Assembly (NCBI GenBank): GCA_013297655.1
Contig: JAAFHV010000078.1
Location: forward strand, 1-34,384
DNA from: Myxococcales bacterium
Lineage (GTDB): Bacteria > Myxococcota_A > Polyangia > Polyangiales > Polyangiaceae
DNA length: 34,384 nt
Direction of reading: 5' to 3'
Position numbers and translations under genes: made by a program. The notes under the pieces are model-generated. The model worked only from the letters and a program-made list of their open reading frames with translations, was not told the origin of the DNA and ran no database searches. Shown in pieces: positions 20,897 to 28,676 of this stretch (the stretch's first letter is position 1; the number at the start of each line of letters is the position of its first letter).

Positions 20897-21174
20897 CGAA
20901 GAAGCCAGCCCGCTCACGCGCCACGAACGCACCATTCAAGGCATCGATGAGACCTACCCTGAGACACAAAATCCTCGACGTCTGCGAACGCAAGATTCTC
21001 CAGAAAGGCCCGTCGGTCGGCGTCTCGTTCTATGCGTTCTTCGCGAACAAGAACGACGATCCCGAGCTTCTCATGGAGGCCGCCGAGTGGTGGATCCGCA
21101 CCGAGAAGCTGGATCACTTCGAGAAGGCGACGAAGATCCGAGGGATGATCGAAGCGATGGACGATCGGCCTTAG
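20893..21174 (+). CDS. small conserved protein, DUF6500-like
   Basis: This 93-residue protein is coupled to the preceding gene by a GTGA overlap. The conserved part appears to begin at Met19 (ATG 20947, with AAGG upstream) and includes VSFYAFFANKNDDPELLMEA followed by AAEWWIRTEKLDHFEKATK. From memory this resembles the short DUF6500 family (about 70-75 residues), whose function is unknown, so the first 18 basic residues may not be part of the mature gene and 20947 is a real alternative start. It is soluble, with Trp-Trp and many charged residues. Its stop TAG shares bases with the stop TAA of the convergent TolC-like gene. Confidence 0.8.
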   Translation: MTKKPARSRATNAPFKASMRPTLRHKILDVCERKILQKGPSVGVSFYAFFANKNDDPELLMEAAEWWIRTEKLDHFEKATKIRGMIEAMDDRP

Positions 21175-22586
21175 TTTCCCCCTCGATCACGCCCCGTCGC
21201 GTGGAGGAGCCGCACCTCGGCGACCCTCGCGTCGACCTTCGCGGACAGCGAGCCGAGGCGGGCGCGGGTGAGCTCGGTCTCGGAGTCGGTGAGCTCGGTG
21301 CTGGTGGCGCGGCCGGATTGGAAGAGCGAGCGACGGACGCGATAACCCTCTTCCGCGGCGACGAGGGAGCGCGCGGAAGTTTCTCGTGCCCCCTTCGCGT
21401 TTCGGACCGCCTCGACCGCTTGCGCGACCTCGACACGAATGCCGTCCTTGAGCTTGGTGGCCTCGGCGTCAATCTGCGCCTTTTTCGCGGCGACCGCGCG
21501 CGCGGCGGCGAGGCTCGCGAAGGTGTCGTTCGGTGTCCAGGAGAGCTGCGCCGACACCGCCCACGTCGTGTAGAAGCGCGTCTGCTGCGGGATGTAGCGC
21601 TGGTTCGGGTTCGCCGCCGTCACGTCGCCAACCAGATCGATCCGCGGATATGCCCCCGCTTTCGTCGCGCTCACCTGGTCGCCGAGCGCCTTCGAAGTCG
21701 CGTCGAGCACCTTCGGCTCGAGGCGCGCGGAGTACGCCTCGTCGACGAGCGCGGTCGTCACCCCGAGCACGTCGGGGAGCGGCGCATCGTGGTCGAGCTC
21801 GTCGCCGACCGCGTGCGACACGGTCGTCGTCTCGTGGAGGAGCGCGGAGAGCTGGGCGTCGTACACGTCGGCGAGGTTCTTCGTGCGAAGGAGGAGCTGG
21901 TCCGCGTCCGCGAGCTGCGACTCGACCCGGAGCACGTCCGCGCGGCTCGCCTGCCCTGCCTCGAACGCATGGGTCACGTCCCCCTTGTGCGCGTTCGCCG
22001 CGGCGACGGCCTGCTCCGCGACCGGGATCGCGAGCTTCGCGCGCACGAGCCCGTAGTAGACGAGCTTCGCTTCGCTCTTCACCCGCAGCTTCGCCGCTTC
22101 TTCCGCGATCTTGGCCGCGCGCTCGTTTCCGTCGGCGGCGCCCTTGGCCTGCGCGAGGCGGAGCACGTAGTCCGAGAGCGGCACCGCGAGGGTCGCTGCG
22201 AACGTGCCCTGGTTCAAGATCACCGGGAACGTGGTCGCGACGTTCACGAGCGGCGTCCCGGCCGGGATCGGGCCTTCGGGTAGCCCGGGCGCGACGGGCA
22301 GGATCCCGAGGAGCGGCGCATCGATGTCCGAGAGACGCGTGTACCGTGCAACGAGTCCGACACGCGGCGCGAACGCGACGAGGGCCTGGTCCACCTGCGC
22401 CGACGCGGCGAGCAGCTCCGCGCGTTTCACCTCCAGATCGGGGGAGGTCGCGACCACCCGGCGAGCGACCTCGTCGGCGGTGATCGGAACGGCCCCTTCG
22501 CTCGCCGCGCGCGCATCGACAGGGCAAAACAAGCCAAACGAGAGTGTCGCGAGCGCGAGCGACGAGAGGACGATTCGGGCCTTCAT
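21171..22586 (-). CDS. TolC family outer-membrane efflux channel
   Basis: This 471-residue protein has an N-terminal signal peptide (MKARIVLSSLALATLSFG, cleavage likely near ARA-AS), then the repeated long helical hairpins and short beta segments of a TolC/OMF subunit, with ITADEVARRVVATSPDLEVKR near the start and FQSGRATSTELTDSETEL near the end. Three copies would form the outer-membrane and periplasmic exit duct for the EmrAB-like pump encoded just upstream. ATG 22586 was chosen because AGGAG lies just ahead and the signal peptide starts there. The 97-base gap to the pump gene holds a perfect hairpin. It is third in the emrA-emrB-tolC order, so the locus supplies a full tripartite system. 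Confidence 0.93.
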   Translation of the reverse strand: MKARIVLSSLALATLSFGLFCPVDARAASEGAVPITADEVARRVVATSPDLEVKRAELLAASAQVDQALVAFAPRVGLVARYTRLSDIDAPLLGILPVAPGLPEGPIPAGTPLVNVATTFPVILNQGTFAATLAVPLSDYVLRLAQAKGAADGNERAAKIAEEAAKLRVKSEAKLVYYGLVRAKLAIPVAEQAVAAANAHKGDVTHAFEAGQASRADVLRVESQLADADQLLLRTKNLADVYDAQLSALLHETTTVSHAVGDELDHDAPLPDVLGVTTALVDEAYSARLEPKVLDATSKALGDQVSATKAGAYPRIDLVGDVTAANPNQRYIPQQTRFYTTWAVSAQLSWTPNDTFASLAAARAVAAKKAQIDAEATKLKDGIRVEVAQAVEAVRNAKGARETSARSLVAAEEGYRVRRSLFQSGRATSTELTDSETELTRARLGSLSAKVDARVAEVRLLHATGRDRGGN

Positions 22587-22622
22587 GGCGGCTCCTAGGG
22601 AATGAGGACGTAAGGTACCGTT

Positions 22623-22645
22623 CGATGTCTCCAGCGGAGACATCG
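22623..22645 (-). promoter_or_regulatory. 10-bp inverted repeat between pump and channel genes
   Basis: CGATGTCTCC and GGAGACATCG form a perfect 10-base inverted repeat with spacer AGC, in the 97-base gap between the MFS pump and TolC-like genes. No T-run follows on the minus strand, so it is not a standard terminator; it could stabilise the upstream mRNA, tune channel expression, or be a protein site. One arm resembles the operator found upstream of the operon (GGA-GACATC against GGATGACATC), which may be chance. Confidence 0.55.
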
Positions 22646-22683: not shown

Positions 22684-24231
22684 TCAGTGCGCGCCGGCGA
22701 CGTCCACGGGGCCCTTGGGCTTCTTGAGGAACAGGATGAGCACGAGGCCGAGCGCGATCGAACAGGCGACGACGCGGAAGCTCTCGTCGAAGGAGAGGAC
22801 CATCGCCTCCTTCGTGACGCGGATCTTCATGATCGTCTCGCCGAGAAGCTCGCGGCTGCCGTTGCCTTGCCCGAGCTTTTGCGCGGTCATCGCGATTTGC
22901 TCTTCGACCTGCGGGTTGCCGGGCACGATCTTCTCGGAGAGGTAAGAGCCGTTGCGCTTGATGCCGTCGGTCACGAGCATGCCCATCAAGGCGGTGCCGA
23001 CCGAACCGCCGAGCTCGCGGGTGAGGTTGAAGAGCCCGGTCGCGTTGCCGCGGTCCTTCGGCGCCACCTCGGAGAGCGCGAGCACCGACACCGGGATGAA
23101 GATGAACCCGAGCCCGGCGCTGCGGATCATGTTCGGCTTCACGAGATCCCAGAAGCCGGCCTCGCCGGTGAGGTGCGACGCGACGATTTGGCTCGTGGTC
23201 ACCGTCACGACGCCGATCACGAGCAAGATGCGCCCGTCGACCTTGTTTCCGATGCGACCGATGAGCGGCATCATGATCATGCTCGCGGTGCCGGCGACGA
23301 GGAACACCTTCCCCACGTCGAGCGCGCTGTAGCGCATCACCGCGCCGCAATAGAGGGAGAACAGGTAGCTCCCCGAGAAGAGGGCGAACCCGGTGAGGAA
23401 GTTCAGCCCCGTGCCCGCCGAGTACGACACGTTCTTGAAGATGCGGAGATCGACCACCGGTTGTTCGGTCTCGAGCTCGTGGATCACGAACGTAACGAGG
23501 GTGCAGAATGCAACCACCGACGCGAGCACGATCGCGTGGCTCTCGAACCAGCCCTCGCGATTGCCCTCTTCCAAGACGTACTGGAGCGCGGGCATGCCTA
23601 TCGCGAGGAGCAAGATCCCGAAGAGATCGATCCGTGCGGCTTTGCCGACCGGGGGTTTCCAGCCCGGCTCCTCGACCACGCGGTTCACGAGCACCGCGCA
23701 GAGGATGCCGAGCGGCACGTTGACGAGGAAGATCCAGTGCCAGTTGAACCACTGGATGAGGTACCCGCCGATCGTGGGGCCGAGAAGAGGACCCGTGACC
23801 GCGCCGAGGCCGAAGAACGCGCCCGCCATGCCGTGCTCCGCTTTCGGATAACGCGCGAAGAGGATGCTCTGCGCCGTCGGGATGATCGCGCCGCCGCCGA
23901 GCCCTTGCAGGATGCGGAAGAAGACGAGCGACGGCAGGCTCCACGCGATGCCGCAGAGCGCGCTCGCGGCGGTGAAGAGCAAGATGCTCGCCGAGAAGTA
24001 CTTGCGATACCCGAAGCGCCGTTGGAGCCAGCCGGTCATCGGGATGACGACGATGTTCGCCATCATGTACCCGGTGGAGACCCAGCCGATCTGATCGATC
24101 GGGGTGCCGAAGCTCGCGCGGATGTCGCTGAGCGCCACGTTGACGATCGTGATGTCGATCATCGCCATCAGCGCGGCGAGCATCACGACCATCGTAATTT
24201 GGGCTTTCGAGCCCCGGACCTCACCGTCCAT
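22684..24231 (-). CDS. EmrB-like DHA2 family MFS drug efflux pump (14 TM)
   Basis: This 515-residue inner-membrane proton antiporter belongs to the DHA2 (14-helix) drug:H+ family. Visible marks are ALMAMIDITIVNVAL in helix 1 (the D-x-T-I-V-N motif), GWVSTGYMMANIVVIPMTGWL, the loop motif RRFGYRKYF, FFRILQGLGGGAIIPTAQ, and GLGAVTGPLLGPTIGGYL (antiporter motif C, G-x-x-x-G-P-x-x-G). A last helix near 490-505 ends before a short tail. It pairs with the adaptor and channel of the same operon to expel compounds across both membranes. ATG 24231 has GAGGAG upstream; 48 bases separate it from the adaptor gene. Confidence 0.94.
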   Translation of the reverse strand: MDGEVRGSKAQITMVVMLAALMAMIDITIVNVALSDIRASFGTPIDQIGWVSTGYMMANIVVIPMTGWLQRRFGYRKYFSASILLFTAASALCGIAWSLPSLVFFRILQGLGGGAIIPTAQSILFARYPKAEHGMAGAFFGLGAVTGPLLGPTIGGYLIQWFNWHWIFLVNVPLGILCAVLVNRVVEEPGWKPPVGKAARIDLFGILLLAIGMPALQYVLEEGNREGWFESHAIVLASVVAFCTLVTFVIHELETEQPVVDLRIFKNVSYSAGTGLNFLTGFALFSGSYLFSLYCGAVMRYSALDVGKVFLVAGTASMIMMPLIGRIGNKVDGRILLVIGVVTVTTSQIVASHLTGEAGFWDLVKPNMIRSAGLGFIFIPVSVLALSEVAPKDRGNATGLFNLTRELGGSVGTALMGMLVTDGIKRNGSYLSEKIVPGNPQVEEQIAMTAQKLGQGNGSRELLGETIMKIRVTKEAMVLSFDESFRVVACSIALGLVLILFLKKPKGPVDVAGAH

Positions 24232-24279: not shown

Positions 24280-25617
24280 TCACTTGGTGAGGACGACGAC
24301 GTCCGCGCTCATGCCGGGACGGAGCACGACATCCTTCGCGCCCTCGAGGCGAACGAGCACGGGTACGCGTTGGACGACCTTCGTGAAGTTGCCCGAGGCG
24401 TTGTCGGGAGGGAGGAGCGAGAAGCGCGAGCCGGTGCCGGGCGAGAAGCTGTCGACCTTGCCGCTGAACGTGCGCGAGCCGAACGTGTCGATCTTGATCG
24501 TGACGGGCTGGCCGACGCTCATGTGCTTGAGCTGGTCCTCCTTGAAGTTCGCGACGATCCACGTGTCGTCGAGATCGACCACCGCGAGGAGCGGGCGCTC
24601 GGGGGAGACGAGCTGGCCCACTTCCACCGTGCGACGGGCGACGGTGCCGGAGACCGTGGAGCGCACCTCGGTGTACGACTTCGCGAGCTCGGCTTGTTCG
24701 AGGGCGGCCTTCGCTTGGTCGACACGGGCCTTCGCGAGCGCCACTTGTGCTTGCGCGGCAGCGACCTGCTCGGGGCCCGATTTGGCGGAGATCATGCGCC
24801 CGCGAGCCGATTCGGCGGTGCCGGTGCCGTTGGCCAGGTTTGCCTCCGCGCTCACGATGCGCGCCTTCGCGAGGGAGACCTGCGCCTCGGCTTCGTCGAA
24901 GCGCGACTTGCGCACGTCGAACTCGGCCTTCGAGACCGCGCCGTCGGAGAGGAGCTTCTGCGATCGCTCGAGCTCGGCCCGCGCGAGACCGAGGCGAGAG
25001 TCGGCCGCGACCCCGTCGGCCTTGGCCTGATCGATTTGTGCACGCGACGATCCGATCGCGGCGCCCGCTTGCACGAGGCCACCGCGCGCCATCGCGAGGT
25101 TTCCGTCGACCGACTTCTCGGTGAGCGCGAGCTGGGTGACCGCGGCCTGGAGCGAGGCCTCCGCTGCCGCGACGTCGGCGCGCACCGCCGCGAGCTTCGC
25201 GAGAGCGTCGCGATCGTCGAGGCGCACGAGCACGTCGCCCGGCTTCACGACCTGGTTGTCCTTCACGAGGACCTCCTTCACCTGCCCGGGAACGCGCGCG
25301 GCCACGTTCGCGACGTGGGCCTCGACCTGCGCGTCGTCGGTGCTCTCTTTTCCCTGCCCCGCGATCATGAGCCCGCCGACCACGGCGGCCGAAAGGAGCG
25401 CGAGCACGGGGAGCACCTTCTTGGCGCGCGACGGCTTGCTCGCGGACGCTTCCGCCGGTTCGGTGGCGGGAGCTTCGGGCTCGGTCGCGGTCTCCTTCGG
25501 GTTGTCCAAACGACGTTCGGTCGTGCGCTCCTTCGAACCTCCCCCAGGACGAGCTTCGCGCTGTTGGGTGGGCACGATCGGTTCGAGGAGCGGGTCGGAT
25601 GCGGTAAGCGTCGCCAT
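24280..25617 (-). CDS. EmrA/HlyD-type periplasmic adaptor subunit with long N-terminal extension
   Basis: This 445-residue membrane fusion protein links the EmrB-like pump to the TolC-like channel. It has a cytoplasmic Pro/Glu/Ala-rich tail of about 66 residues, much longer than in E. coli EmrA, one membrane helix (about 68-87), the lipoyl-like half DAQVEAHVANVAARVPGQV (95-113), a long Ala-rich coiled coil (about 140-310), then the second lipoyl half SYTEVRSTVSGTVARR and a beta-barrel with VDLDDTWIVANFKE. ATG 25617 lacks a ribosome binding site and would lie only 3 bases from the start of a transcript made from the predicted -24/-12 promoter, so translation may be leaderless. It is the first gene of the efflux operon. 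Confidence 0.93.
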   Translation of the reverse strand: MATLTASDPLLEPIVPTQQREARPGGGSKERTTERRLDNPKETATEPEAPATEPAEASASKPSRAKKVLPVLALLSAAVVGGLMIAGQGKESTDDAQVEAHVANVAARVPGQVKEVLVKDNQVVKPGDVLVRLDDRDALAKLAAVRADVAAAEASLQAAVTQLALTEKSVDGNLAMARGGLVQAGAAIGSSRAQIDQAKADGVAADSRLGLARAELERSQKLLSDGAVSKAEFDVRKSRFDEAEAQVSLAKARIVSAEANLANGTGTAESARGRMISAKSGPEQVAAAQAQVALAKARVDQAKAALEQAELAKSYTEVRSTVSGTVARRTVEVGQLVSPERPLLAVVDLDDTWIVANFKEDQLKHMSVGQPVTIKIDTFGSRTFSGKVDSFSPGTGSRFSLLPPDNASGNFTKVVQRVPVLVRLEGAKDVVLRPGMSADVVVLTK

Positions 25618-25630
25618 GACGCACTGTGCT

Positions 25631-25646
25631 TACAAAACGGATGCCA
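25631..25646 (-). promoter_or_regulatory. sigma-54-like -24/-12 element for the efflux operon
   Basis: On the minus strand this reads TGGCATCCGTTTTGTA. Against the sigma-54 consensus TGGCACG-N4-TTGCA it keeps TGGCA at -24 and TTG-A at -12 with the exact 10-base spacing between the GG and GC pairs; the main departure is T for the conserved C at -12, plus TC for CG. The transcript would start near 25620, three bases before the adaptor ATG. The adjacent regulator has a sigma-54-contacting GAFTGA loop, which supports the call. A weak match can occur by chance. Confidence 0.5.
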
Positions 25647-25670: not shown

Positions 25671-25751
25671 GGATGACGTCCAAAAAATCCGTAAACTGGC
25701 TACTTGGATGACATCCGATTCGCTACAGGATGATGTCCAGGAGAGCAGTGG

Positions 25752-25760
<9 letters not shown>
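25671..25760. promoter_or_regulatory. four-copy operator array of 11-bp inverted repeats
   Basis: Four copies occur in the divergent intergenic region: GGATGACGTCC (25671-25681), GGATGACATCC (25706-25716), GGATGATGTCC (25728-25738) and GGATGACATCC (25750-25760). Copies two and four are perfect 5-base palindromes around a central base; the others depart by one base pair or so. The last three repeat with an exact 22-base period (11 repeat plus 11 spacer), about two helical turns, so proteins bound there would lie on one face. The first is 35 bases earlier. Relative to the predicted efflux promoter they centre at about -56, -91, -113 and -135. Copies three and four flank the ribosome binding site and cover the start codon of the regulator. 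Confidence 0.85.
25739..25743 (+). promoter_or_regulatory. ribosome binding site of the regulator, embedded between operators
   Basis: AGGAG eight bases before ATG 25752 fixes the start of the sigma-54 regulator. It directly abuts the third operator copy, and the fourth copy covers the start codon, so regulator binding could block its own transcription. Confidence 0.75.

Positions 25761-28676
<2,916 letters not shown>

Follow-up and report, generated by a model that had tools for sequence, protein, structure and literature searches.

The operon encoding an EmrAB-TolC-like efflux pump in the window (the whole stretch of DNA analysed, 34,384 nucleotides, from a soil myxobacterium) very likely has a sigma-54 promoter that is controlled by a divergently encoded activator and gives rise to a near-leaderless message. 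The promoter candidate is a −24/−12 (sigma-54 type) element, TGGCATCCGTTTTGTA (25646-25631, minus strand), which was recognized from its sequence and has better counterparts at the matching position of eight other loci. What sequence and comparison establish is the element itself, a set of palindromic boxes, the domains of the encoded proteins, and the fact that element, spacing, and gene order are conserved.

The efflux operon and the divergent regulator

We found an EmrAB-TolC-like gene set with HlyD/EmrA, MFS_1, and OEP domains, all on the minus strand and in one operon. The first gene (24280..25617) encodes a periplasmic adaptor of the EmrA/HlyD type; its best match is TIGR00998, at 235.8 bits and thus below the cut-off of 390.8. 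The other two genes encode an EmrB-like MFS transporter of 515 aa (22684..24231; MFS_1, E = 4.9e-55) and a TolC-like outer membrane efflux protein of 490 aa (21171..22643; OEP, E = 2.1e-28). This arrangement resembles that of EmrAB-TolC pumps, in which the adaptor, MFS, and OEP genes share one operon. The EmrAB-TolC pumps of E. coli are controlled by EmrR/MarR, whereas the predicted control of the pump in the window is by a sigma-54 activator and not by a MarR-type repressor.

The regulator gene (25752..28676, plus strand) diverges from the adaptor operon across a gap of 134 bp. Its product of 974 aa was characterized by domain matches, 18 homologues, an AlphaFold model, and Foldseek, and consists of an N-terminal HTH (residues 10-63), a TPR-like solenoid (99-595), a GAF-like domain (610-707), and an AAA+ domain with GAFTGA (730-960). 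The Sigma54_activat domain within the latter (residues 732-897, E = 2e-63) has an intact GAFTGA. The protein thus combines the sigma-54 AAA+ domain, GAFTGA loop, and Walker B of enhancer-binding proteins with a DNA-binding HTH of its own, though this HTH is N-terminal. Among the 18 homologues, the HTH is strongly conserved (IRxLRG..SRAAFARxLGVTPxTVYRWELP) and GAFTGA is kept, with only Ser/Tyr as loop variants. The AlphaFold model has a mean pLDDT of 79, with the AAA+ part weaker. In Foldseek searches this AAA+ part resembles the structures of NtrC1, FlrC, FleQ, and DmpR, and the PDB matches listed are all sigma-54 activators aligned via the AAA+ part. A sigma-54 gene (rpoN) is present in the same genome.

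Features shared with enhancer-binding proteins of the NtrC/NorR/PspF family are the Sigma54_activat AAA+ domain with its GAFTGA, palindromic sites upstream, and a divergent target. The regulator differs from them in its N-terminal HTH, its long TPR-like solenoid with GAF-like sensor, and its lack of a C-terminal Fis HTH. LevR-type activators also have an N-terminal HTH, but combine it with PTS domains. Its predicted domains thus mark the regulator as a sigma-54 activator with an unusual layout.

The −24/−12 element and the palindromic boxes

The minus-strand stretch around the element up to the adaptor start is TTGGCATCCGTTTTGTAAGCACAGTGCGTCATGGCG. As in sigma-54 promoters, the −24 part has a GG doublet (25645-25644), and the spacing from GG to the −12 doublet is 10 bp, which is identical in all relatives. 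The −12 doublet (25633-25632) is GT, where the consensus has GC. We scored elements by a simple weighted consensus with a maximum of 22.5, and the element in the window obtained 17. Of 5943 ATGs in related loci, 62 (1.0%) have a score of at least 17 at 12-18 nt from the start, and dinucleotide shuffling of the intergenic region produced such a score in 0.7% of cases; the background frequency of elements scoring at least 19 is 1.6e-4 per position. Given this chance level of about 1%, the window element alone is suggestive and moderately unusual, and the decisive evidence is conservation.

The distance from the −12 doublet to the adaptor ATG, which begins at 25617, is 14 nt. When +1 is placed 12 nt downstream of the second base of the −12 doublet, the adaptor transcript is predicted to start at about 25620 and to have a 3-nt leader. 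Based on this rule and on two genome-wide trends, a C before the ATG and a peak at spacings of n = 12-14 (see below), the predicted transcription start zone is 25617..25621 on the minus strand. The start could possibly fall on the A of the adaptor ATG itself, such that the leader would be 0-3 nt. No AGGA, GGAG, or GAGG was found upstream of this ATG, which is therefore without a Shine-Dalgarno sequence.

These results agree with a preliminary description of the sequence, which had reported a near-consensus −24/−12 element on the minus strand with correct spacing and a missing −12 C, a start at about 25620 (three bases before the adaptor ATG), the lack of a ribosome binding site, and a GAFTGA regulator next door. 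That description had also named a sigma-70 promoter driving the operon as evidence that would speak against its reading. A consensus scan of the divergent gap for sigma-70-type promoters gave no match (such scans are weak in GC-rich genomes), and this candidate was dropped.

The gap also contains four copies of the palindrome GGATGAYRTCC, spaced 35, 22, and 22 bp, that were absent from the preliminary description. These boxes, to which no strand is assigned, are GGATGACGTCC (25671..25681, centre at about −56), GGATGACATCC (25706..25716, about −92), GGATGATGTCC (25728..25738, about −114), and a second GGATGACATCC (25750..25760, about −136), with both copies of GGATGACATCC being perfect. Shuffles of the gap region never had more than one GGATGAYRTCC box. 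In 12 gaps, nine boxes of the form GGAWNNNWTCC were observed compared with 0.10 expected. They are present at seven of the 12 loci and mostly lie between −56 and −200 relative to the predicted start, a usual distance for enhancers; at the pump loci of G028 and G434, the boxes are less regular. By sequence and position, these palindromes are probably the enhancer sites at which the divergent regulator acts, and the overlap of the last box with the regulator's own start codon at 25752 suggests autoregulation.

Conservation at related loci and alternative explanations

A locus search using the regulator's N-terminal 720 residues as the query found eight further loci in which the regulator diverges from an EmrA-type adaptor and an MFS gene; several of the relatives compared are MAGs. 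All eight have GG-N10-GC in the divergent gap, with scores of 19-21.5 and GC at −12. The predicted leaders are 1 nt in G011 (TGGCACAGAAGGCGCA), G351 (TGGCACGGAAGGCGCA), and G036 (GGGCGCGGTTGGTGCA), 5 nt in G431 (CGGCACGCGGTCTGCA) and G028 (TGGAACGAGATTCGCT), 6 nt in G432 (CGGCACGGAGTGTGCT), 7 nt in G434 (TGGCACGCTCGGTGCT), and 31 nt, with a Shine-Dalgarno sequence, in G008 (TGGCACAACCTTCGCT). This pattern supports the sigma-54 control of the pump proposed in the preliminary description. Loss of the GG/GC elements in orthologues, which was to count against that proposal, is the opposite of what we found, and the retention of the element at all eight loci, seven of them with leaders of 1-7 nt, decided this test in its favour.

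Regulators of this type also occur in other contexts. In G009, an orthologous regulator lies beside an RND pump, with the element TGGCACGGGACCTGCA and a leader of about 45 nt. Strong −24/−12 elements were found in the divergent gap at two more loci, namely, L062 4770 (leader 87), where the neighbour is a CoA-binding-type protein by inspection, and L068 5964 (leader 2), where it is an outer-membrane-type protein. The homologues G009:C198, G431:C28, and G436 lack a neighbouring pump and were left out of the count; immediately upstream of the first of these (L066) lie units of about 24 bp in tandem (GCAGACGATCCCCAGCAGGCG). The Myxococcaceae (L046-L061, from Myxococcus, Archangium, and Pyxidicoccus, with the M. 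xanthus copy being L058) have homologous regulators without the pump. Those examined have a different neighbour and no matching element, and this group was counted neither for nor against. In the Myxococcus and Pyxidicoccus loci read, a conserved inverted repeat AATGC...GCATT (AAATGCTCAATCGTTTGCATTC) is found upstream.

Due to its GT at −12, the window copy departs furthest from the consensus within the locus set; it is sigma-54-like but off-consensus, whereas the copies of the relatives satisfy the sigma-54 promoter definition. GC at −12 belongs to the core of the consensus, and the GT-bearing promoter could be of low strength; alternatively, the GT could stem from an assembly error. It is also conceivable that the promoter has decayed, with the change from GC to GT leaving an ancestral sigma-54 control weak or silent and another promoter now driving the operon. 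GT at −12 is indeed found only in the window, and the score is the lowest of the set (17 compared with 19-21.5). However, the spacing, the GG, the near-leaderless placement, the four boxes, and the intact regulator are all retained, TTTTGTA of the window element keeps the −12 G and the T-rich run, and the gap has no sigma-70 match, such that we consider this decay unlikely.

Even with the promoter correctly identified, the message would not be leaderless if the true adaptor start were further downstream and preceded by a normal leader. The adaptor proteins have long, low-complexity N-termini ahead of the membrane segment, and the window has one in-frame GTG at codon 15. Nevertheless, this explanation appears quite improbable: the adaptor N-termini (MATxA/MVSxA) are similar at the ATG next to the element and begin there at the seven near-leaderless loci, no other start codon is available within 75 nt at most loci, and elsewhere in the genome the ATGs at such spacing are the first codons of signal peptides and lipoproteins. 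Finally, although the −24 part GGCATCC includes a CATCC half-site that paired with a box arm in the repeat search, the regulator HTH is similar to phage-repressor-type HTHs, and one box covers the regulator's start, it is highly improbable that the element is an operator half-site (CATCC/GGATG) resembling −24 by chance and that the regulator represses an ordinary sigma-70 promoter, since the relatives carry TGGCACG...TGC and not half-sites at the same place, and the regulator retains a GAFTGA and AAA+ motor that repressors do not need.

Probable near-leaderless sigma-54 genes in Polyangia and implications

The near-leaderless placement described earlier is supported at the pump, but it is not peculiar to the pump, since it recurs genome-wide. 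In 108 genomes of the family, the strict element TGGCACGNNNNNTGC is followed by an ATG at 10-17 nt in 1105 cases (263 for the reversed pattern) and at 32-39 nt in 422 cases (277 reversed). In three genomes, 59 of the 135 matches within 0-30 nt sit at 12, 13, or 14 nt, and an SD-like motif is present in 9/68 cases at 11-15 nt compared with 17/25 at 20 nt or more. A C precedes the ATG in 48 of 68 cases (71%) at 11-15 nt compared with 15 of 58 (26%) at long spacing, as would be expected of a CA initiator with its +1 on the A of the start codon. Among 20 ATGs sampled in the source genome at such close spacing, 16 head reading frames of at least 150 codons, and several start signal peptides or lipoprotein signals exactly there. 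The 12-14 nt arrangement was found 235 times in the family sample (32 reversed), 187 times in other families of the order (27 reversed), and 186 times in other orders of the class (20 reversed). The pattern is weak in eight Myxococcaceae, with 92 matches at 0-30 nt (116 reversed) and 15 at 12-14 nt.

This enrichment, the rarity of Shine-Dalgarno sequences, and the frequent C before the ATG together make near-leaderless sigma-54 transcripts look general, rather than a quirk of the pump, and such mRNAs may form a common class among these myxobacteria. On balance, we think it probable that Polyangia have a genome-wide class of sigma-54 promoters with the start either on the A of the start codon or 1-3 nt ahead of it, and that the genes concerned are translated leaderless. 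These genes would be activator-controlled and would include many for lipoproteins or secreted proteins, plus the efflux pump. Across the class, many genes behind elements at 12-14 nt encode lipoproteins or secreted proteins. In one genome (G258), 48 matches belong to a near-identical stretch (TGGCACGACGYTTGCGGTCGACCGACTCGATG), apparently a dispersed repeat family.

Leaderless transcripts have been reported in other bacteria, including Sinorhizobium meliloti, with 171 leaderless start sites (PMC3616915), and Deinococcus-Thermus, with −10-adjacent leaderless genes (PMC12340547). The adaptor message resembles these in its AUG start codon, predicted to be at or next to the 5' end, and in the lack of a Shine-Dalgarno sequence, but differs in being tied to a −24/−12 promoter. 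Sigma-54 regulon surveys (PMC12316311, PMC3162934; PMC8743547) also link sigma-54 to envelope and transport genes, and one of the RpoN SELEX peaks in E. coli lies next to the cmr multidrug efflux gene (PMC8743547). Text searches of PMC12316311 and PMC3162934 revealed no EmrAB pump under sigma-54. In the openly accessible literature, we found no description of EmrAB pumps under sigma-54 control or of leaderless genes with sigma-54 promoters in myxobacteria, and a text search of the same literature gave no leaderless messages with such an arrangement in Myxococcus or Sorangium.

From the arrangement of the locus we infer DNA binding and activation by the regulator, the exact start, leaderless translation, and an inducer. 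RNA polymerase with sigma-54 would occupy the GG/GT at −24/−12 and be unable to open the DNA alone. The N-terminal HTH of the divergent activator would contact the palindromic boxes, which are centred between about −56 and −136, and an inducer or stress would presumably be sensed via its TPR/GAF-like middle. The AAA+ ring, with ATP and the GAFTGA loop, would open the promoter via DNA looping. Adaptor transcription would begin 0-3 nt ahead of the ATG, such that the first gene would be translated without a Shine-Dalgarno sequence from a leaderless or near-leaderless message.

If true, a multidrug-type efflux pump would be under a promoter class that is silent until an ATP-driven activator fires, and the boxes provide a testable consensus for the activator sites. 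The pattern further suggests that one type of promoter goes together with one mode of translation (leaderless) throughout myxobacterial genomes; if so, activator-controlled genes could use an initiation route different from that of the rest of the genome.
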